Source of the DNA: Verrucomicrobiales bacterium
Lineage (GTDB): Bacteria > Verrucomicrobiota > Verrucomicrobiia > Limisphaerales > CANJXF01
Reading direction: 5' to 3'
Assembly: GCA_947478865.1 (NCBI GenBank)
Contig: CANJXF010000040.1
Span: forward strand, 1 to 41,595
Length of the DNA stretch: 41,595 nucleotides
Shown here: one piece after another, positions 11,399 through 26,365 of the stretch
Position numbering within the stretch: the stretch's first letter is position 1
Layout: every line of letters begins with the position of its first letter
Program-made: the position numbers and the translations under genes
The notes under the pieces: generated by a model
The model's input: only the letters and a program-made list of their open reading frames with translations
Told to the model about the DNA's origin: nothing
The model's database searches: none

Positions 11399-12832
11399 TC
11401 ACGTCAGTATCTCGCGAATTACTTCCCCATGCACATCCGTCAGGCGCCGGTTCGCACCATTGTTGCGGAACGTCAGTTTTTCGTGATCGATTCCAAGTAG
11501 ATGCAAAATCGTCGCGTGCAGATCGTAGCAATACGCTTTATCCTTCGTAGACTTCCATGACCATTCATCGCTTTCGCCGTAAGCCGCGCCCCCTTTGATC
11601 CCCGCGCCAGCCATCCAACTGACGAATGTGCCACCGTTATGATCCCGACCAACGCTGCTTTGGCTGAAGGGCATGCGGCCAAATTCCGTCGTCCAAATCA
11701 CCAGTGTATCTTCGAGCATCCCACGCGCTTTCAAATCTTTGATCAGTGCAGCGGTTGGTTTGTCCGTCGCGCTCGTGATCGACCCAAGCTCTTTAGAAAT
11801 GTCAGCGTGATTATCCCAATTTCCTGCCGCGCCAGCAGTGCCGCTCCATACTTGTACAAAGCGCACGCCGCGCTCCAACAAGCGGCGCGCCGTCAAACAA
11901 TTGCGGCCAAAATCTTCGGTTGTTTTTTCATCAAGCCCGTACATTTTCTTGGTCGCTTCCGTTTCACCGCCAAGGTTGAGAACATCGGGAGCGCTCAACT
12001 GCATTTTTGCTGCGAGTTCGTAGGATGCGATTCGAGCATCGAGTCGTGAGTCGCCTTGCGCATGAGCGAGATGTTCGCGATTCAACTTGTTCAATAAAGC
12101 CAAGCCGTCGGCTTCACTTTTCTTCGTAATAAATTTCGCAGAGCCGGGCGGGAATAAATCTTCGATCGGATTTTGCGCCGCGGCTTTGATGATCGTGCCT
12201 TGGTGCGCGACGGGCAAAAAGCCAGATGAAAAACTTCCCTTGGAATTGTAAGGCAAACCGCGCGAATCCGGCAGCACCACGAACGTGGGCAAATTATCCG
12301 TCAGGTTTCCGAGACCGTAGGAGATCCACGCGCCCATGCATGGAAAACCGGGCGTGAGAAAACCAGTGTTCTGCAAATAAACGCCCGGACCATGGACATT
12401 CGTCTTCGAAGTCATCGCCATGAGAAACGCGAGGTCATCAACGCATTTCGCGATGTGCGGAACCGCACTGCTCACCCAACGTCCGCTAGCGCCGTGCTGT
12501 TTCCATTCGTACGGGCTTTTCATCAAATTTCCGGGGGAACTGGTGGTCGCCTCCACGCGTTCGCCCGGGTCAAACTTTTGCCCGCTGCGCTTGATGAGTT
12601 CCGGTTTGTAATCGAAAAGATCACACTGACTCGCCCCGCCGTTCATGAAGAGTTGAATCACGCGTTTTACCTTCGCGCGATGATGCAAGCCGCCGTTGAA
12701 TTCAGGATTCGGTTTTGCGAGGGAATCGGCGAGCAAGCCTTGCGTGCCGAACAAATGCGCCATTGCCACGCCGCCCAATCCACCGCCGAAGCGCCAGAGA
12801 AATTCACGGCGATTGAAAAAAGTAAGGCTCAT
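11399..12832 (-). CDS. DUF1501 family protein with twin-arginine-like signal (first copy)
   Basis: A 477-residue protein of the DUF1501 family, which is related to the alkaline phosphatase/sulfatase fold and is abundant in Planctomycetes and Verrucomicrobia. The N-terminus has NRREFLWRFGGGLGGVAMAHL, a twin-arginine-like signal, so export as a folded protein is likely. Family features include FMNGGASQCDLFDYKP, a DNHADI segment, VIWTTEFGRMPFSQ, GRDHN and the C-terminal HATILHLLGIDHEKLTFRNNG. The gene starts 9 bases after the stop of the DUF1549/DUF1553 gene upstream, so the two form an operon. The true substrate is not established; the pairing suggests an oxidative or hydrolytic role on complex polysaccharides. 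A second pair lies at 36517-41125. Confidence 0.88.
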   Translation of the reverse strand: MSLTFFNRREFLWRFGGGLGGVAMAHLFGTQGLLADSLAKPNPEFNGGLHHRAKVKRVIQLFMNGGASQCDLFDYKPELIKRSGQKFDPGERVEATTSSPGNLMKSPYEWKQHGASGRWVSSAVPHIAKCVDDLAFLMAMTSKTNVHGPGVYLQNTGFLTPGFPCMGAWISYGLGNLTDNLPTFVVLPDSRGLPYNSKGSFSSGFLPVAHQGTIIKAAAQNPIEDLFPPGSAKFITKKSEADGLALLNKLNREHLAHAQGDSRLDARIASYELAAKMQLSAPDVLNLGGETEATKKMYGLDEKTTEDFGRNCLTARRLLERGVRFVQVWSGTAGAAGNWDNHADISKELGSITSATDKPTAALIKDLKARGMLEDTLVIWTTEFGRMPFSQSSVGRDHNGGTFVSWMAGAGIKGGAAYGESDEWSWKSTKDKAYCYDLHATILHLLGIDHEKLTFRNNGANRRLTDVHGEVIREILT

Positions 12833-12841
12833 ATTGTCTGA

Positions 12842-15838
12842 CTAATTCACGAAGATAAATTCGTTGCTGTTCAGGATAATCCGGCAGGTGTTCGCCATAC
12901 CGTGTTCAATCGCGTAAGACTTCAGTGCCTTAAGCTCGCTCCGATTCGGGTCGCGTCCCAGCGTCAGGTTGTAAGCGGTCCGAATCTGTATTTCCACATT
13001 GCCGCTGCCGCGCGCGACGCGTGCCGCCAAATGTTCGCTTTGGCGGATGACAAAACGGTCGTTCAACATCGCGAGCGCTTGCAATGCCGTGACGGAAATA
13101 TTTCGCACTGCCGTCATTTGCGATGGATCGGCGCAATCGAGCGTATCCATAAACGGATCGGGCAATGTGCGATAAATATATCGATAAATGCTGCGACGAA
13201 AATTTACCGGCGCATCGACATCAAAACGTCCGTAATCCACCGTTGGCGTCCGGTCGGGAGTCGGATCTTCTAAATAAAATTGCATGACGGACGGACCGCC
13301 CATCGTGAGGTCAAGCTTCCCGGTGATTTGAAGAATCGCGTCACGCAAACATTCCGCATCGAGTCGCGTGCGGTTCATCCTCCAGAGGAAAAGATTCCCG
13401 GAATCCAGCTTGGCAAATCGAACATTGTTCCCGGAGGATTGCTGATAAACCGCGCTAGTCAGAATCAATTTGTGCAATCCCTTGATCGAACCGCCGCTCT
13501 CAATAAAGGTGGACGCGAGCCAACCCAGCAATTCCGGGTGTGTCGGCCGCGAGCCCATTTCACCAAAGTCATTCGGCGTATCGACAAGGCCACGACCGAA
13601 ATGATAATGCCAAACGCGATTCACAATGGAGCGCCACGTCAGAACGTTGCGAGGATCAGCAATCCATTTCGCGAGAGCAGCGCGGCGCGCTGCCTCATCG
13701 CTTGGATCGGCAAGGCTGAATTGAGAACTCAGATCAGAGACAAAAGCGAGCGCACCGGGCACAGCGGGTTCCTCGGGTTTGGTAATGTCGCCCCGTTTGA
13801 GCAGATAAACCGGACGTGGAATTTTTGCAGGGGTGAAATTTTTTTGCGGTGGAAAATCGCTGGTTCCAGCGTAGACCATTCTGGGCGCAGGCAAAACCGC
13901 AAGCTGCCGCTCCAATCGCGCTTTCAAAACGTATCCGGCAAGTTCGATTTTCTGATCGGCGGATCGGGCCGCAACCTTGATCGCAATAATTTTTGAAATA
14001 TTTTCCGGCAGTGAATTAACCCGCACTGGGAGCGGCGCACTCGTCACCGACAGGCGCGCCCTGCCGATCGTATGCGAGCTTCCATGCTGTTGCTCCAAAA
14101 CAAAAGTCAACGCGGTGCCGTTTTCGAAACCGATGCTTTCCTTCAATTCGAAAAACGCGAAATGCGATTTGCCTTCCTCAGGATGAATTCCCCAACCCGT
14201 TTTCCCGTCGCCATCGATCGCCTTGCCGACTTCCCAATCCTTTTGGTTGAAATCCGCCGACGCATTTTGCAACGCGATCGTTTTTGCAGAGTTGGTTTCG
14301 CCCTTTGGCGCGGCTTTCAGACGAAATTCCGTGAGGGTAATATTCCCGTTGTCCTGTCGACCCGGCCCGTCGTGCGGCAAGCTTTTGTCGGCCAGAACCT
14401 CAAGACGAACCGCAGTGACTCCCTTCATATCCATCGGCGCCATGATTGTGTAGGTGTCAGACTCCGGCCGCGTTCCGGTCGCGAGAACTGAGCCATCGAC
14501 CTGCTTCGTCAGGGTTGCGCCGCCATCACTTTTGAAGCTGGTGGGATCGAGAATTGTCCATGCAATTGCCGGAGGACCAATCTGTTTTTCCCATTCAGCA
14601 ACTTCCGATTGCACGGACGCGTCCAGCAGCGACTTATCTTTGGGATTCACGTCCAAAGCAGTTTTCTTTTTCAACAAAGCCTGGCGCGTGGCGTGAATTT
14701 TTGGATCAAGATCATAAGGCCGGTCTACGCGATCTACTCCAGCAAAGACGGATTGCAAATTGTAATATTCCCTCTGCGAGATGGGATCGAACTTGTGATT
14801 GTGACACCGCGCGCAATGAACCGTGCTGCTGACAAACGTGGACATCGTCACGGCAACCATGTCGTCGCGATCCAGATTCTGCGCCATCTTCTTATCCACC
14901 GTGTCGGCCACGATGTGCATTTGCGAACTTTCATCCCACGGACCGGTCGCAATAAAACCGAGCGCCACCACTCCCGCAGGATCGTCAGGAAAAAGGGTGT
15001 CGCCGGCGATTTGTTCCTCGACGAACCGGGCGTAGGGTTTGTCGTCATTGAATGAGCGAATTAAATAATCGCGATATGGCCACGCATTCGGGCGGGGACG
15101 ATCCTGATCGTGCCCATGAGAATCGGCGAAATGAACCACATCGAGCCAATGGCGCGCCCAACGTTCACCGTATCGCGGCGACGCGAGCAACCGATCAACG
15201 ACCTTGGAATATGCACCGGGAGATTTGTCGGTGAGGAAATCGCGCATCTCTTCCGGAGTGGGTGGCAATCCGGTCAAATCAAACGTGACGCGCCGCAACA
15301 AAGTTCGCTTATCCGCCAGCGGTGAAGGTTTCATCCCCTTCTCTTCCAGCTTGGCAAGAATGAATTGGTCAATCGGAGTTTTCGCCCACGATTTATTTTT
15401 CGTTTTCGGCGGCGCAGATTTTTTGATCGGTTGCAGCGACCATATCTTTTCGACCTTCGCGGTCAACGGCTGCTCGTAAACCGCGCCGGTGTTGATCCAT
15501 TTGGCAAGCTGCGCGATTTCATTCTCGGACAATTCTTCCCGCTTATACGGCATGCCTGGCTCATCGGCATGCGTGATTTTCTTGTAGAGCAAACTCGCTT
15601 TTGCATCGCCTGCCACAATGGCTGACCCGCTTTCGCCGCCGCGCAAAAGAGATTCGTGCGTGGAAAGATTCAGTCTGGCGCGCTCGAATTTCCCGCCATG
15701 ACACTCGATGCATTTGGATTCGAGAATCGCACGGGCTCCGGCGAAGGGCGAAATCTCCCCCTGTGCGACACCGCAAAGCAATCCGGCCAGGACAACCAAC
15801 AAACTGAGCAACCATTTAGTTTTATTTTGGGCGATCAC
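12842..15838 (-). CDS. PSD1-type cytochrome c protein with DUF1549 and DUF1553 domains (first copy)
   Basis: A 998-residue secreted protein, starting at GTG, with a signal peptide of about 27 residues (MIAQNKTKWLLSLLVVLAGL...). Domains in order: a PSC1-like cytochrome c segment with CIECH at 43-47; DUF1549 (PSD1) from about 154 to 360, with a second CxxCH-like CARCH at 342-346 followed by NHKFDPISQ; a variable middle region with beta-rich sequence; and DUF1553 from about 710 to 970, including NRVWHYHFGRGLVDTPNDFG and SRPTHPELL. Such proteins are expanded in Planctomycetes and Verrucomicrobia and probably pass electrons during breakdown of polymers. It is divergent from rarA by a 108-base gap and precedes its DUF1501 partner. 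Confidence 0.9.
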   Translation of the reverse strand: MIAQNKTKWLLSLLVVLAGLLCGVAQGEISPFAGARAILESKCIECHGGKFERARLNLSTHESLLRGGESGSAIVAGDAKASLLYKKITHADEPGMPYKREELSENEIAQLAKWINTGAVYEQPLTAKVEKIWSLQPIKKSAPPKTKNKSWAKTPIDQFILAKLEEKGMKPSPLADKRTLLRRVTFDLTGLPPTPEEMRDFLTDKSPGAYSKVVDRLLASPRYGERWARHWLDVVHFADSHGHDQDRPRPNAWPYRDYLIRSFNDDKPYARFVEEQIAGDTLFPDDPAGVVALGFIATGPWDESSQMHIVADTVDKKMAQNLDRDDMVAVTMSTFVSSTVHCARCHNHKFDPISQREYYNLQSVFAGVDRVDRPYDLDPKIHATRQALLKKKTALDVNPKDKSLLDASVQSEVAEWEKQIGPPAIAWTILDPTSFKSDGGATLTKQVDGSVLATGTRPESDTYTIMAPMDMKGVTAVRLEVLADKSLPHDGPGRQDNGNITLTEFRLKAAPKGETNSAKTIALQNASADFNQKDWEVGKAIDGDGKTGWGIHPEEGKSHFAFFELKESIGFENGTALTFVLEQQHGSSHTIGRARLSVTSAPLPVRVNSLPENISKIIAIKVAARSADQKIELAGYVLKARLERQLAVLPAPRMVYAGTSDFPPQKNFTPAKIPRPVYLLKRGDITKPEEPAVPGALAFVSDLSSQFSLADPSDEAARRAALAKWIADPRNVLTWRSIVNRVWHYHFGRGLVDTPNDFGEMGSRPTHPELLGWLASTFIESGGSIKGLHKLILTSAVYQQSSGNNVRFAKLDSGNLFLWRMNRTRLDAECLRDAILQITGKLDLTMGGPSVMQFYLEDPTPDRTPTVDYGRFDVDAPVNFRRSIYRYIYRTLPDPFMDTLDCADPSQMTAVRNISVTALQALAMLNDRFVIRQSEHLAARVARGSGNVEIQIRTAYNLTLGRDPNRSELKALKSYAIEHGMANTCRIILNSNEFIFVN

Positions 15839-20840: not shown

Positions 20841-22106
20841 GTGGAAAGAGCGACTGGTTTCCTGAACAAATATCTCGTGCCAGCTCTCACCAAGCTGAGC
20901 GAAAACACCTACTTGTCGGCCATTCGAGCCGGAATGGTATCAATCGTTCCGCTGACCATCATCGGCGGGCTGTTTCTCGTCGTTTCGTATTTGCCGATTC
21001 CTGGTTGGGAAGCGAGAGTAGCACCTTATCTCCAACTTCTGCAAATCCCAGTGACGGCCACCTTTGGTTTGCTCGCGGTGTTCGCCTGCTTTTTCGTCGC
21101 CTACGATCTGGGCAAACAACTCAAGCAGGAAGCCATTGTCAGCGCGACCATGGCGACGGCGGTTTTTTTAATGACGCAGATCAACCTCAAAGACCTGACG
21201 TTTAACATGGATGGCCTCAGTTCAAAGGGGTTATTCACCGCCATTCTCATCGCGCTCATCACGGTGCGTGTTCAGAAATTCTTCACCGATAAAAATTTCG
21301 TCATCAAAATGCCCGACAGCGTGCCCGCCGTTGTCTATGAGTCGTTCGTGTCGCTCACACCGCTATTTTTTCTCGTGGTGGTTTTCTGGCTGATCCGTTT
21401 CGTTTTAGGCGTCGATATTGATCACCTTGTGCAAACCGCTTTCAAGCCTTTGGTTTTCGCGCTGAATACGTTGCCCGGAATTCTCGTTTACGCGTTCCTC
21501 GTGACGATGCTTTGGTCGGTCGGCATCAACGGAGACAATGCCATGGACGCCCTGGTCGCTCCAATTTTCCTGCAATATCTCGCGCTGAACGTCGAAGCGA
21601 TGACACAGCACCAGCCGTTGCCATACATCACGGCCTACGGATTTTTCACGGCCTTTGTCAACGTCGGTGGCACGGGAGCCACGCTCGCTTTGGCGTTGGT
21701 CATGCTCAATTCAAAAGATCCCGGTTATCGCAAAGTCAGCCGCATTTCTCTGCCAACCCAGGTTTTTCAAATCAACGAACCTATTTTCTTCGGTTTCCCG
21801 ATCGTGCTAAACCCGATTTTCATGATTCCCTACATTCTCAATGCACTGATTTTGACGACCGGCAGCTATCTCTTGATGAATTGGGGGTTGATTAACAAAC
21901 CATTTATCAACGTGCCTTGGACCACACCGCCGATCATCGGGCATTATCTCGTGTCCGGGGGTGACTGGAGAGCAGCAGTCTGGGGTCTCGTTTCCATTCT
22001 GATTGCCATGGCGGTTTATTATCCGTTTGCCAAAGCGGCCGAACGACATCGCTTAAAAGCAAACAGCCATGCGCACGCCGAGGCACATACAGCCGTGGTC
22101 AAATAA
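20841..22106 (+). CDS. PTS EIIC-like sugar permease (lactose/cellobiose family) without EIIA or EIIB
   Basis: A 421-residue membrane protein with about ten hydrophobic segments. It resembles EIIC proteins of the CelB/ChbC group (disaccharides such as chitobiose). The conserved FQINEPIFFGFPIVLNP segment, including its Glu, is present near residue 310. Where characterised relatives carry a GIHG-type motif with a conserved His close to the sugar, this protein has WSVGINGDNAM near residue 230, so His appears to be replaced by Asn. No EIIA, EIIB, HPr or EI gene is in the window. Its neighbours are a GH84 enzyme and an ATP-dependent kinase. The protein may therefore move an unphosphorylated beta-GlcNAc sugar; this is inference. 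Its stop overlaps the next start by 1 base (TAATG). Confidence 0.85.
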   Translation: MERATGFLNKYLVPALTKLSENTYLSAIRAGMVSIVPLTIIGGLFLVVSYLPIPGWEARVAPYLQLLQIPVTATFGLLAVFACFFVAYDLGKQLKQEAIVSATMATAVFLMTQINLKDLTFNMDGLSSKGLFTAILIALITVRVQKFFTDKNFVIKMPDSVPAVVYESFVSLTPLFFLVVVFWLIRFVLGVDIDHLVQTAFKPLVFALNTLPGILVYAFLVTMLWSVGINGDNAMDALVAPIFLQYLALNVEAMTQHQPLPYITAYGFFTAFVNVGGTGATLALALVMLNSKDPGYRKVSRISLPTQVFQINEPIFFGFPIVLNPIFMIPYILNALILTTGSYLLMNWGLINKPFINVPWTTPPIIGHYLVSGGDWRAAVWGLVSILIAMAVYYPFAKAAERHRLKANSHAHAEAHTAVVK

Positions 22107-23476
22107 TGAATGCCGATCCATTCATCTGCGGCGTGGCGGAGGGTTTTTACGGCAAACCATGGTCACTTGCCCAGCGCCGCCGGCTCTTGGGATGGATGCA
22201 AAAATGGGGACTCAACACCTATCTTTATGCACCAAAAGATGACCTCAAACACCGGATGCGCTGGCGCGAACTCTACGACGCAACGGAATCCGCCGATCTC
22301 AAATCTCTGATTAACGATTGTCGGGAGCGCGGCATCAAATTCCTTTACGCGCTCGCCCCAGGCTTGGATTTCAGCAAGGCAAATCCGCAGGATGCGCCCG
22401 CGTTGTTTGCGAAGGCGGAGCAGCTTTTGCATTTAGGCTGCGAACATTTTGCCATTCTCTACGACGACCTCGATGTCACTTTGGCTTCTCGCATGGTCGA
22501 AGACCCGGCTTCGGTCGCGCAAGAGCAGGCCGAAACTTCCAACGCATTGCTTGAGGTTTTGGAGAATTCCAGGAAATCGATCAGCCTGATTTTTTGTCCC
22601 ACGCAATATTGCGGGCGCAAAGCGGAACCGTCCGTCGCGGAGTCGCCTTACCTGCGCAAGCTGGGCGAGGCGTTGGACCCGAGAATTGGCTTTTTCTGGA
22701 CGGGTCCGGAAATTGTTTCTGAAACAATCAGCGTGGAATCCATTCGCGAATTGCGCGCCGCCATCCAGCGCAAGCCAACGCTCTGGGACAACATCCATGC
22801 AAACGACTACGATCTACGCCGCATTTACCTCGGGCCTTATTCCGGACGGTCGCTGGACCTGCGCAACGAACTCGCCGGCATCCTGACCAATCCGAACTGC
22901 GAATTCGAAGCCAACTTCATCCCGATCCGCACGCTTGCCACTTACGCCACCGCAAAAGCTAATTACAATCCGCGTGACGCCTTCGAATCCGCTTTGCCAG
23001 AATGGCATCGCGAATGGACAACTGCCGGAACGCCCATCACGCTCAATGAAGTTCGGATGCTGGCCGATTGCTTGTATCTTCCGGATCAATTTGGCGACGG
23101 CGGCAATGCGTCCCTCGCAGCGTTGAAAAAATCGTTCTCTTCCTCGGCGACGTCGGACACCAGCGCCGCCGGGACTTTCCGGGAATTTATTGCTGATTAC
23201 GACGCGTTCTTCCAAAAGATGCCGACGCTGCTCAATCGTGACCTCTTCTACGGTTTGCTCCGGCATGCCTGGGAACTTAACGAGGAACTCCAGTTGCTTC
23301 GGCTGTATCTCGCCTGGCTGGAAAGTAATTCGGCGGACAGCCACAAGTATTTCACACCCCATTTTCGCAAAGGAATTTATCGCGGCGGTTTCGTTGCGAC
23401 ACTGCAAAGATTATTGCCGATGGATGCCGACGGCGGATTCAATCATCGCCTTTCATTAACAGAAAAAAACCTATGA
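22106..23476 (+). CDS. GH84 beta-N-acetylglucosaminidase, O-GlcNAcase catalytic and stalk domains
   Basis: A 456-residue enzyme with no signal peptide, hence cytosolic. Family GH84 removes terminal beta-linked GlcNAc through substrate-assisted catalysis. Motifs in order: CGVAEGFYGKPW (8-19), LNTYLYAPKDDLKHRM (36-51), and the catalytic Asp pair D120-D121 in FAILYDDLD. WDNIHANDYDLRR and NPNCEFEANFIP follow, both strikingly close to animal OGA. After residue 300 comes a helical region (NEVRMLADCLYLP...) matching the OGA stalk, ending RGGFVATLQRLLPMD as in human OGA just before its HAT-like domain. It lacks the extracellular modules of pathogen GH84 enzymes. It overlaps the GNAT gene by ATGA. Substrate is inferred to be an imported GlcNAc conjugate; peptide O-GlcNAc is possible. 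Confidence 0.93.
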   Translation: MNADPFICGVAEGFYGKPWSLAQRRRLLGWMQKWGLNTYLYAPKDDLKHRMRWRELYDATESADLKSLINDCRERGIKFLYALAPGLDFSKANPQDAPALFAKAEQLLHLGCEHFAILYDDLDVTLASRMVEDPASVAQEQAETSNALLEVLENSRKSISLIFCPTQYCGRKAEPSVAESPYLRKLGEALDPRIGFFWTGPEIVSETISVESIRELRAAIQRKPTLWDNIHANDYDLRRIYLGPYSGRSLDLRNELAGILTNPNCEFEANFIPIRTLATYATAKANYNPRDAFESALPEWHREWTTAGTPITLNEVRMLADCLYLPDQFGDGGNASLAALKKSFSSSATSDTSAAGTFREFIADYDAFFQKMPTLLNRDLFYGLLRHAWELNEELQLLRLYLAWLESNSADSHKYFTPHFRKGIYRGGFVATLQRLLPMDADGGFNHRLSLTEKNL

Positions 23477-24096
23477 TTTCCCCACCCTTCAAGCTCCGCC
23501 GCGCTGAACCGCGCGATGAGCCCGCAGCCTACGATATCTGCGTGCAAACCGGCGACAGCGGCCGCGGCGCAGCGCACATCTACAAGGACGACCCTCGCGC
23601 CTTGGGACGAATTTTTGTCGGCCCCTATCTCGCGATGGAACCCGACTTGGCTTACGTGCTGGAAGATGATCAAGGCGTCTGCGGTTACCTGCTCGGCGCA
23701 CTTGATTCGCATCGTTTTCTGGCTGACTACATTTCGAAATGGATGCCGCCAATTCACGCACAATTTCCAGAGCCAACCGGCGATCCCAACACGTGGACTC
23801 CCACGCAAAAACTTTACTACGAATATTATCATCCCGACATGTTCCTCCCCGAACCGATCGATCAATATCCGTCACACGCGCACATCGACATGCTGCCGCG
23901 CGCGCAGGGTCGCGGCATGGGTATCGACATGATGCACACGCTGCTCGAGTCGCTCGCCGCGAAAGGATCGCCGGGCTGCCATCTGGGATTGGGCGAAGAC
24001 AATGCCCGCGCGGAAAAATTTTATCGCAAACTCGGCTTCACCGAACTCGCCCGAAACAAAGGGGTGCTTTATTTAGGTTACCGCTTAAATAAGTGA
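23473..24096 (+). CDS. GNAT-family acetyltransferase homologous to the C-terminal HAT-like domain of O-GlcNAcase
   Basis: A 207-residue cytosolic GNAT protein. Its sequence follows the C-terminal domain of animal OGA: FKLRRAEPRDEPAAYDICVQ, YVLEDDQGVCGYLLGALD, a KWMPPI segment, PSHAHIDMLPR, and AEKFYRKLGFTEL near the end. The acetyl-CoA pyrophosphate loop, RAQGRGMGIDMM at about 137-148 (Q/RxxGxG/A), is intact; in human OGA this loop is degenerate, which is why that domain is called pseudo-HAT. Bacterial stand-alone homologues are known to bind acetyl-CoA. The acceptor is unknown; an amino sugar, peptide or antibiotic is possible. It overlaps the GH84 gene by 4 bases, so translation is coupled. 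Confidence 0.9.
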   Translation: MISPPFKLRRAEPRDEPAAYDICVQTGDSGRGAAHIYKDDPRALGRIFVGPYLAMEPDLAYVLEDDQGVCGYLLGALDSHRFLADYISKWMPPIHAQFPEPTGDPNTWTPTQKLYYEYYHPDMFLPEPIDQYPSHAHIDMLPRAQGRGMGIDMMHTLLESLAAKGSPGCHLGLGEDNARAEKFYRKLGFTELARNKGVLYLGYRLNK

Positions 24097-24159
24097 ACAC
24101 GTTTCATTTTGATTTCGCGCCTTTCCGTTTTGGCGATGCGACACTAGTAATATTCTTTC

Positions 24160-25170
24160 ATGAATCATCAGAGCCTGTTCGTCGGTATTGACGGCGGCGG
24201 CACCCATAGTTATGGCGTCGCCGTGAATGAGGCTGGCCAGGTCCTAGCGACGGCAAAATCTGGCTCGCTAAATTTTCATGGTGGTGGATTGGCTCGTGCC
24301 CGTCGCAGTTTAATAGAACTCGTTCAAGCATTGCGCTCCCAACTTCCCGCTGGCTGCAACTTTGAAAACTTTGTAATCGGCAGCGCGGCGCTGTTTATTG
24401 ATTCGACGGAGGCCGAAAAAGAGGAATTTTGCAGCGGCATCACGCCACTTCCAATCACACGATTGATCGGCGATTGCCTGACGGCTTATCACGGCGCGTG
24501 CCTCAGCCAACCGGGGATTCTGGTGATTGCTGGAACGGGATCGATCATTCTCGTGCGCAACGAAGCGGGCGTTTTTTCGCAGGGCGGAGGTTGGGGCCAC
24601 ATCTTCGGCGACGCCGGTAGCGCATGGTGGATTGCGCTCGAATCCACCAAAGCCGCGATTGCCGACATCGAGGGCTTGGGACCGAAGACCTGCCTCGGCG
24701 CAACCATCTGCCTTTTTTACGGGGTCAAAGAATTAAGCGAAATTATCCCTGTTGTTTACGACGCGAGCTACTCAAAGGATAAATTTGCGGCGCTCGCCAG
24801 ATTCCTGTCCCTGCACGCCTCGAACGACGAGGTGTTTCAGGATGTTTGCCGTCGCGGCGGACGCGACCTGGCCGCGCAAGCGTTAGCCACGGTGAAACGC
24901 GCAAACCTGCAACTCGATCCCTTGCCGCTTTTCCTCGCCGGCAGCGTTTTGGATAAAAATCAATTTGTTCGCGACAGCCTTGTCACTGAGATGAATCGCG
25001 AACGCAGGGTAAAAGTCCTCCATGCGTTGTTGCCTCCGTTGCTCGGCGCCGCACTCCTTGCTCTCGAAGAGGGTGGCGTCACGGCGAAGCCAGAATTAAT
25101 CGAAACCTTGCGTGCCTCGCATCACGAACTCGTCGCAAAAAATCATTCCACACCCAATGAACGCTTTTGA
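24160..25170 (+). CDS. N-acetylglucosamine kinase-like protein (BadF/BadG/BcrA/BcrD ATPase family)
   Basis: A 336-residue cytosolic sugar kinase of the ASKHA fold, similar to NAGK. The phosphate-1 motif GIDGGGTHSYGVAV (9-22), the adenosine/phosphate-2 region VIAGTGSIILV, and GGGWGHIFGDAGSAWW with conserved Gly-Asp are present. It would make GlcNAc-6-phosphate with ATP, the step after GH84 cleavage. It starts 63 bases after the acetyltransferase gene and overlaps the SIS gene start by 14 bases, so it belongs to the same operon. Related members act on glucosamine or MurNAc, so the exact sugar is not certain. Confidence 0.85.
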   Translation: MNHQSLFVGIDGGGTHSYGVAVNEAGQVLATAKSGSLNFHGGGLARARRSLIELVQALRSQLPAGCNFENFVIGSAALFIDSTEAEKEEFCSGITPLPITRLIGDCLTAYHGACLSQPGILVIAGTGSIILVRNEAGVFSQGGGWGHIFGDAGSAWWIALESTKAAIADIEGLGPKTCLGATICLFYGVKELSEIIPVVYDASYSKDKFAALARFLSLHASNDEVFQDVCRRGGRDLAAQALATVKRANLQLDPLPLFLAGSVLDKNQFVRDSLVTEMNRERRVKVLHALLPPLLGAALLALEEGGVTAKPELIETLRASHHELVAKNHSTPNERF

Positions 25171-25891
25171 CCAATACACCCGCATCGTGCGGGAACAGAT
25201 CGACGCGATCCGCACGACGCAACGCGCTGCCATCGAGCAAGCCGCCACCTGGCTTGCCCTAGCTTTGGCCAATGACCGCGGACTCTACGCTTTTGGAACC
25301 GGCCATTCTCACATGCTCGCCGAAGAGATTTTTTATCGAGCGGGCGGCCTGGCTCATGCCGTGCCGATGTTGGACACCAAGCTGATGCTCCACGAGAACG
25401 CCAGCAAATCGACCGAGGTTGAGCGAATTGAAGGTTATGCCAAGAAGCTGTTGGAAAAATATCCGATTGCCGCGGGGGACGTGTTAATTGTCGCTTCGAA
25501 TTCCGGTCGCAATCCAGTTCCCATCGAACTCGCCCTGGCCGCGCGCGCGCGTGGATTGAAAGTTGTCGCCATCACCAATCACGCCCACGCCCGCGATTGG
25601 CCATCGCGCCACTCGTCGGGGAAAAATCTCGCCGAAGTTTCTGATCTGGCGATCGATAATTGCGGCGTCTCCGGCGATGCTTGCCTGGAGATTAATGGGC
25701 TACCCACGCGCGTTGGCCCAACCTCGACTATCACTGGAGCGCTCATCGTCAACTTGATTGTCGCGCAAGGAATCGAAAACGCGATCGCGCTCGGAACGAT
25801 CCCCGAAGTTTACGTCAGCAGCAACAGCAATGGCGACAATCACAACGAACGCCTGCTGGAAAAATATCGTGGCCGCATCCAACATTTGTGA
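25157..25891 (+). CDS. SIS-domain protein of the UPF0309 type (phosphosugar binding)
   Basis: A 244-residue protein from the ATG at 25157; an upstream in-frame start would add 15 residues that overlap the kinase. The SIS (sugar isomerase) fold is shown by YAFGTGHSHMLAEEIFYRAG, VLIVASNSGRNPVPIELALAAR and GLKVVAITNHAH. This is the UPF0309 type, whose founding members lie beside nagA, which fits its position in a GlcNAc operon. SIS proteins isomerise or bind phosphosugars; MurQ (MurNAc-6-P etherase) also has this fold. A role in handling GlcNAc-6-phosphate or MurNAc-6-phosphate is plausible but unproven. It is the last gene, 9 bases from a convergent regulator-like gene. Confidence 0.85.
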   Translation: MNAFDQYTRIVREQIDAIRTTQRAAIEQAATWLALALANDRGLYAFGTGHSHMLAEEIFYRAGGLAHAVPMLDTKLMLHENASKSTEVERIEGYAKKLLEKYPIAAGDVLIVASNSGRNPVPIELALAARARGLKVVAITNHAHARDWPSRHSSGKNLAEVSDLAIDNCGVSGDACLEINGLPTRVGPTSTITGALIVNLIVAQGIENAIALGTIPEVYVSSNSNGDNHNERLLEKYRGRIQHL

Positions 25892-25900
25892 TCTGGCAGC

Positions 25901-26365
25901 TCACTCTTTTTCATCGGCAACCTTCTTTTCGGCTGAGTTCATTTTTTCAAGCAGGGTCCCGAGTTTTTTCGTGTCGCCAAAATGGGAAATGGCACCGCAG
26001 CGATTGCACATGAACGCTTGCGTCTCAATGTTGCTGGCTTGCAGGGTCCAGAATTTTGTTTTCTTCGGCAGAAAATAATTCAATCCAGTGCTCCGAAAAA
26101 CCCCTTCCACCAGTTCGCCGACGTGGCACATTGGACAAAGTTTTTTCACGTTCTCCAGATCTTTCTCACTGTGATAAACATCCATCACCGCATCCAGATC
26201 CTGCCGCCAGAAACGGGTGGAATCACCCACTTTTCGATAGGTGATTTTGCCCTCGCGCATCCAACGAAATAAAGTCGGCTCGCCCACATCCAAAAACTCC
26301 GCGGCTTCCTTGATCGAATACCATCGTGGTTTGTTTTCTTCGGAAATCGGTTCTCCACTCATCAT
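25901..26365 (-). CDS. Helix-turn-helix (excisionase-like) protein with a zinc ribbon
   Basis: A 154-residue protein. Residues 14-57 are a MerR/excisionase-like HTH_17 motif (YSIKEAAEFLDVGEPTLFRWMREGK, then Arg-rich wing RFWRQDLDAVM). CPMC at 77-80 and CNRC at 120-123 look like the two halves of a zinc ribbon, separated by a beta-rich stretch. Such small HTH proteins bind DNA as regulators. It is divergent from the MoxR operon, over an AT-rich promoter region, and convergent with the SIS gene. Control of either neighbour is possible; nothing in the sequence decides it. Confidence 0.78.
   Translation of the reverse strand: MMSGEPISEENKPRWYSIKEAAEFLDVGEPTLFRWMREGKITYRKVGDSTRFWRQDLDAVMDVYHSEKDLENVKKLCPMCHVGELVEGVFRSTGLNYFLPKKTKFWTLQASNIETQAFMCNRCGAISHFGDTKKLGTLLEKMNSAEKKVADEKE

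Follow-up and report, generated by a model that had tools for sequence, protein, structure and literature searches.

A Two-Gene Counterpart of Animal O-GlcNAcase

We examined a stretch of 41,595 nucleotides (the window, meaning the whole of the DNA analyzed: positions 1 to 41,595 of contig CANJXF010000040.1, assembly GCA_947478865.1) from a Verrucomicrobiales bacterium, whose genome of 4.4 Mb is 97% complete and has its closest relatives in the Verrucomicrobiota. Two overlapping genes on its forward strand encode, as separate proteins, homologues of the two halves of animal O-GlcNAcase (OGA). The first (22106–23476; Pfam NAGidase, 9e-83) encodes a protein of 456 residues, a stalk-type beta-N-acetylglucosaminidase of glycoside hydrolase family 84 (GH84) homologous to O-GlcNAcases; its stalk, a helical bundle, spans residues about 307–443 (23023–23434), up to an LLPMD motif, as delimited by alignment with human stalk residues 550–698. 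The second (23473–24096; ACETYLTRANSFERASE) encodes a GNAT acetyltransferase of 207 residues (AT) of the OGA HAT type, with an intact P-loop, RAQGRGMG, at residues 143–150 and an HID motif at H137–D139. The GH84 stop codon and the AT start codon share an ATGA at 23473–23476 (forward strand), an overlap that likely couples their translation. The two reading frames differ, so that the animal arrangement of GH84, stalk, and HAT domain in a single chain is not present here.

A first-pass annotation of this DNA had reported the two overlapping reading frames and four OGA-like motifs (LNTYLYAPKDD, WDNIHANDYD, NPNCEFEAN, and QRLLPMD), and we recovered all of these. It had also set the gene boundary at exactly the animal domain boundary; the correspondence holds, except that the GH84 frame does not stop at QRLLPMD and runs about 14 residues beyond it, into what is the linker between stalk and HAT domain in animals.

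Classification of the GH84 Protein

Sequence searches of the PDB with the GH84 protein returned human OGA at the top (3e-113 to 1e-106), followed by Trichoplax OGA and OgOGA from Oceanicola granulosus (2xsa; 2e-86, with an alignment reaching residue 447), whereas the matches to Thermobaculum terrenum OGA (1e-53), BT_4395 (5e-41), and NagJ (1e-36) were much weaker. A stalk-type profile built from 19 bacterial relatives gave the same ranking, with about 505–530 bits for human OGA, 457 for Trichoplax OGA, and 456 for OgOGA, against 290 for T. terrenum OGA, 220 for BT_4395, and 208 for NagJ; the GH84 proteins of the loci that we fetched fell into two groups with this profile, one of at least 450 bits (stalk-type) and one of at most 320 bits. 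The similarity extends through the stalk. Residues 308–442 aligned with the human stalk as far as QRLLP(I)D in a single-sequence search, the isolated human stalk chain 5uhk_B was matched by the family profile at 4e-22, and identity to human OGA was 42% over 436 positions of barrel and stalk.

The active site is conserved in full. D120 and D121 correspond to the catalytic aspartate pair D174 and D175 of human OGA, and K44, Y168, W227, N229, D234, Y235, and N262 match human K98, Y219, W278, N280, D285, Y286, and N313, so that all human active-site residues are kept. Y235 was found in 42 of 42 aligned stalk-type sequences and in only 1 of 6 others. A predicted model (predicted local distance difference test score, pLDDT, 88) superimposed on human OGA with a Z score of 45.9 across 394 residues, those of the stalk among them, and on OgOGA with 45.1, compared with about 36–38 for NagJ and the T. 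terrenum and Bt enzymes. In GH84 trees, in which two animal sequences were the only eukaryotes, a clade uniting animals and OgOGA with the window and further bacteria received support of 100/98, apart from the NagJ-type enzymes.

The protein is thus a GH84 O-GlcNAcase by its barrel, catalytic aspartates, and N-acetylglucosamine (GlcNAc) pocket residues, and a member of the animal/OgOGA subfamily by stalk homology, clade, and fold. This bears out the earlier claim that it is nearer to animal OGA than the usual bacterial GH84 enzymes are; a grouping with NagJ-like enzymes, which would have told against that claim, did not occur. From family knowledge and the conserved residues the enzyme is predicted to be active. 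It is probably cytoplasmic, since the domain starts at about residue 6, too near the N terminus for a signal peptide to precede it.

The Acetyltransferase

Strong sequence relatives of AT in the PDB were limited to OgpAT, the partner of OgOGA (3zj0; 2e-46), SsAT from Streptomyces sviceus (4bmh; 3e-39), and the HAT domains of Trichoplax and human OGA (3e-26 to 7e-25); all other GNATs in this single-sequence search lay above 1e-3. With a family profile the animal HAT domains scored 9e-35 or better, while the next GNAT reached 4e-6. The predicted fold (pLDDT 93.9) gave the same order, with Z scores of 30.7 for OgpAT, 28.0 for SsAT, and 26.4 for the Trichoplax HAT domain against 18.1 for the next GNAT. 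Both sequence and fold therefore place AT in the OGA HAT-type family, as had been proposed, and no unrelated acetyltransferase family matched it better. The resemblance of the pair to OGA far exceeds what chance would give, and the two genes are found side by side in several phyla.

Judged by sequence alone, AT carries the signature of an active enzyme: P-loop glycines G146, G148, and G150, together with H137 and D139. H137, D139, G148, and G150 were conserved in every one, or almost every one, of 48 close bacterial homologues and in 9 of 9 divergent ones, whereas H137, G148, and G150 are lost in the human and Trichoplax HAT domains. We also compared with animals those positions at which 95% or more of the 48 operon ATs agree. 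In the N-terminal part (residues 1–129) human and Trichoplax each retained 18 of 27 such positions; in the C-terminal part, where the P-loop and the catalytic histidine lie, human kept 7 of 19 and Trichoplax 5 of 19, compared with 16–19 in the nine divergent bacterial homologues. In previous studies OgpAT and SsAT bound acetyl-CoA and animal pseudo-HATs (pHATs) did not (PMC3814719; PMC3919268; PMC12494797). The bacterial AT is accordingly best described as predicted active, retaining the acetyl-CoA loop and catalytic histidine that animals have lost.

Conservation of the Gene Pair and Bacterial Fusions

Among the 57 stalk-type loci with enough sequence to be judged, some of which are closely related and hence not all independent events, AT lay immediately downstream of GH84 in 49, was fused to it in 3, and was non-adjacent in 5, so that 52 of 57 had an adjacent or fused AT. 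The two genes shared a 4-base NTGA overlap in 30 of the 49 two-gene loci, and 2 of the 5 loci without an adjacent AT (L047 and L070) have one elsewhere in the genome. The hosts belong to Verrucomicrobiota, Acidobacteriota, Planctomycetota, and Deinococcota, and across these four bacterial phyla the pair forms the conserved core of an operon. A GH84 match, mostly of the stalk type, was present in 36 of 97 genomes of the order to which the window belongs. Beyond the order GH84-AT was rare when counted with a strict cut-off and few candidates scored per genome (7 of 111 Deinococcota, 3 of 343 Planctomycetota, and 1 of 388 in a sample of the phylum, this last being the window's own genome), and the plasmid records searched held no full-length stalk-type relative.

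Three loci encode GH84, stalk, and AT in a single open reading frame: L037 (Verrucomicrobiota, 789 residues), L073 (Planctomycetota, 819 residues as called), and L150 (Deinococcota, 659 residues). The frames are uninterrupted and the linkers short, and a single alignment of the L037 protein with human OGA spans stalk, linker, and HAT domain. As all three come from draft assemblies, an indel error may underlie any single fusion; three such errors in so short a junction are unlikely. Forcing the three fusions into one clade cost 193 log-likelihood units and was rejected by the approximately unbiased (AU) test (p 5e-7), and a clade of the three with animals was 224 units worse. The fusions therefore arose independently of one another, and the three together with the animal fusion do not go back to a single event. 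Two genes are the usual bacterial state and fusions are secondary, which runs counter to the earlier description of the window's pair as a split gene. The repeated fusion indicates that joining GH84 and AT has been favored more than once, and the fused proteins offer natural single chains in which both halves should be active.

One further candidate, L068, was discarded as a fusion: its genes share a frame, with two stop codons between them. Separately, the open frames at L162 2015–4264, L163 5372–7477, and L164 6992–9097, from Deinococcota and Planctomycetota, continue about 270–300 residues further N-terminally of the stalk-type GH84, a putative extension.

Genomic Neighborhood

In the window, the pair belongs to a compact run of five genes (20841–25891), all on the forward strand. 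It is preceded by a permease (20841–22106) resembling the EIIC component of the phosphotransferase system (PTS), of the lactose/cellobiose/chitobiose family (PTS_EIIC, 6e-44; lacE subfamily, above its cut-off), which overlaps the GH84 gene by one base (TAATG). It is followed by a BadF/BadG-type sugar kinase that resembles the N-acetylglucosamine kinase NagK (24160–25170; BcrAD_BadFG, 1.5e-24; NagK_SO3507, 1e-23, below the NagK cut-off) and by a SIS-domain protein of sugar isomerase type (25154–25891; SIS_2, 1.8e-48; PRK02947 subfamily, 1e-90, above its cut-off), whose ATG at 25154 gives a 17-base overlap with the kinase gene. From knowledge of these families we infer that the five genes are co-transcribed.

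The same kinds of neighbors recur elsewhere. GH84-AT pairs lie near both a BadF kinase and a SIS protein, or near a DegT-type sugar aminotransferase in their place, and with a transporter that is an EIIC-like permease, a set of ABC permeases, or an SSF symporter. A DegT/DnrJ/EryC1 aminotransferase replaces kinase and SIS protein after AT in many verrucomicrobial GH84-AT operons (L027 8087–9406, L036 4094–5359, and 13 more loci), and the two modules were never seen together in the operons examined. An EIIC-like permease occurs near GH84-AT in 26 loci; besides the window, such permeases were noted in L027–L030, L034–L036, L039, L050, L053–L056, L058–L061, and L065–L066. The window's own genome has no PTS_IIB match that could serve as the cognate EIIB, and only 1 of 58 genomes of the same order has one; the permease without EIIB is probably a PTS-independent sugar carrier.

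Clusters of kinase, SIS protein, and the other type of GH84 exist in some Actinobacteria and Firmicutes. In some actinobacteria a divergent AT lies nearby on the opposite strand, and a Salinibacterium case adds a GntR/UTRA regulator and an ABC sugar-binding protein. A link to amino sugars does not hold for the AT family as a whole, since lone ATs with mixed neighbors occur in Pseudomonadota, Deinococcota, and Actinomycetota. At L141 (4352–6581) a tightly packed series of genes has a Deinococcales AT homologue after a BshB2-like PIG-L de-N-acetylase and a kinase; we discarded these two neighbors as support for an amino-sugar link because the kinase is a pyridoxal kinase.

Proposed Function

The amino-sugar kinase and SIS genes, or the DegT gene in their place, together with a sugar transporter and the lack of an O-GlcNAc transferase (no PF13844 match, and hence no GT41 partner for protein O-GlcNAc cycling, in the 97% complete genome) make a catabolic role probable, and the surrounding biology is probably amino-sugar catabolism, not protein O-GlcNAc cycling. 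We lean, with modest confidence, toward an operon of five genes for the salvage of amino sugars, built around a two-subunit homologue of animal OGA, with AT acetylating glucosaminides so that GH84 can cleave them. In such a pathway a small beta-linked saccharide of glucosamine (GlcN) and GlcNAc would enter through the EIIC-like permease; AT would use acetyl-CoA to N-acetylate free amino groups on the glucosamine residues; cytoplasmic GH84 would release GlcNAc by substrate-assisted catalysis; and the BadF kinase and SIS protein would channel it into central metabolism. Since GH84 catalysis uses the substrate's own 2-acetamido group, glucosamine residues would block the enzyme, and the neighboring AT would lift the block. 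A fungal enzyme offers a parallel: RmNag, which combines GH3 with a GNAT, acetylates glucosamine, and its transferase is needed for cleavage of (GlcN)2 (PMC4680927). Pairs of a DegT-type aminotransferase and a GNAT that yield N-acetyl amino sugars are also known, among them WecE/WecD and PseC/PseH. Family membership, active-site conservation, and gene order with its conservation enter this proposal as computed results, the AT acceptor and the exact substrate as hypothesis.

Several points weigh against the proposal. We know of no member of the AT family with an established acceptor. No sequence kinship of AT with the RmNag GNAT was seen in the PDB profile search, where no entry of that name appeared, and the RmNag GNAT region was not named among the 50 best AT folds listed, so that the analogy is functional only; the listed fold matches also included no glucosamine acetyltransferase structure, which excludes nothing. 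In Actinomycetota and Pseudomonadota many homologues of AT stand apart from GH84, among neighbors with no amino-sugar link, five stalk-type loci have no adjacent AT, and the kinase and SIS protein take their names from family models, the kinase falling below the NagK cut-off. Given the acceptor question and the lone homologues of other phyla in unrelated contexts, we put the acetylation step forward as a working hypothesis.

It is also conceivable, though we think it unlikely, that AT is an active acetyltransferase which chiefly binds and regulates GH84, by sensing acetyl-CoA or acetylating GH84, and so foreshadows the human pHAT. The near-constant adjacency, frequent 4-base overlaps, and repeated fusion suggest physical association, and the pHAT of human OGA touches the stalk and affects the active-site environment (PMC12494797). 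However, the catalytic and acetyl-CoA residues are almost invariant in 57 bacterial sequences, which binding alone would not need, and OgpAT was produced and crystallized alone.

AT might instead acetylate some other amine (an amino sugar of the DegT module, a sugar phosphate, a polyamine, or a peptide) and share a pathway with GH84 but not its substrate. The absence of the kinase-SIS pair from DegT-containing operons and the scattered contexts of lone AT homologues speak for this, but it leaves unexplained why AT overlaps or fuses with the glycosidase specifically, across several phyla, and we consider it improbable. That GH84 strips GlcNAc from cellular proteins as in animals is very improbable indeed: barrel, stalk, and active site are animal-like and several bacterial OGAs act in vitro on eukaryotic O-GlcNAc proteins according to the literature, but no GT41 transferase was found in the genome, and genes for a transporter, a kinase, and a SIS protein surround this one.

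Known Systems and the Origin of Animal OGA

In O. granulosus, an alphaproteobacterium and so of a phylum other than the window's, a stalk-type GH84 gene is likewise followed directly by an OGA HAT-type AT gene (OgOGA and OgpAT; 2xsa, 3zj0); OgOGA is about 43% identical to the window's GH84 over the barrel, and OgpAT binds acetyl-CoA. Rao et al. (2013, PMC3814719) described this order of the two genes and how it resembles human OGA. SsAT belongs to the same AT family and falls outside the GH84-coupled AT clade, among lone ATs. T. terrenum OGA (5diy), NagJ, and BT_4395 have the barrel and catalytic aspartates in common with the window's GH84; of these, T. terrenum OGA lacks a HAT domain and branches outside the stalk-type clade, and the stalk-type profile gives NagJ and BT_4395 far lower scores. 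The fungal GH3-GNAT proteins RmNag and Ngs1 (PMC4680927; PMC5063960) also join a beta-N-acetylglucosaminidase-type domain to a GNAT, but the glycosidase is of another family, the GNAT has no detected sequence relation, and Ngs1 is a sensor. In the open-licence papers searched we found mention neither of the conserved catabolic operon nor of GH84 and AT fused in bacteria. What is new here is the operon core in four phyla, its amino-sugar setting, the three independent bacterial fusions, and an AT retaining residues lost in animals.

Animal OGA (human 5m7r and 9qen; Trichoplax 9qep) has the same order of barrel, stalk, and HAT-type domain and the same catalytic residues. The window's pair differs in consisting of two proteins, with no long disordered insertion, an AT with its acetyl-CoA loop and catalytic histidine kept, and a catabolic operon context. 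The first-pass annotation had raised the origin of OGA or a transfer between kingdoms. In our best-sampled GH84 tree, animals do nest inside bacteria, beside a Trueperaceae sequence (91/95) and within a group holding the window's subclade (90/84). Across the GH84 trees, however, animals were nested near that subclade in two and were not resolved in one, and the alternative in which all bacteria form one clade was not rejected (AU p 0.53 in one tree; 12.8 log units worse and AU p 0.26 in the best-sampled one). Because the placements differ and the tests do not reject this alternative, we make no claim of transfer; the best tree favors, without significance, that animal OGA came from bacteria, which is plausible. 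The AT tree is uninformative for the animal HAT domains, whose very long end branches (2.5 and 3.4) mark a long-branch join.

A 2025 study (PMC12494797) describes the HAT-like domain of animal OGA as a pseudo-HAT whose function is unknown. A conserved operon in which an apparently active form of this domain stands nearly always beside the same glycosidase, among amino-sugar genes, suggests a concrete ancestral function for it. We offer, tentatively and as possible rather than probable, that the animal lineage acquired a bacterial module for amino-sugar salvage, made of two genes like the pair in the window, and that their later fusion gave animal OGA. The pseudo-HAT would then be the remnant of a glucosaminide N-acetyltransferase, no longer able to bind acetyl-CoA but with more of the half on the acceptor side preserved, and a ligand resembling an amino sugar may still bind to it.

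Other Features of the Window

Directly after the operon and convergent with it, an excisionase-type helix-turn-helix protein (HTH_17) is encoded at 25901–26365 on the reverse strand; its top NCBIfam match is the MAD1 defense HTH, below the cut-off. Further upstream, also on the reverse strand, 11399–15838 holds a DUF1501 and PSCyt1/PSCyt2/PSD1 gene pair, a planctomycete and verrucomicrobial module of unknown function.

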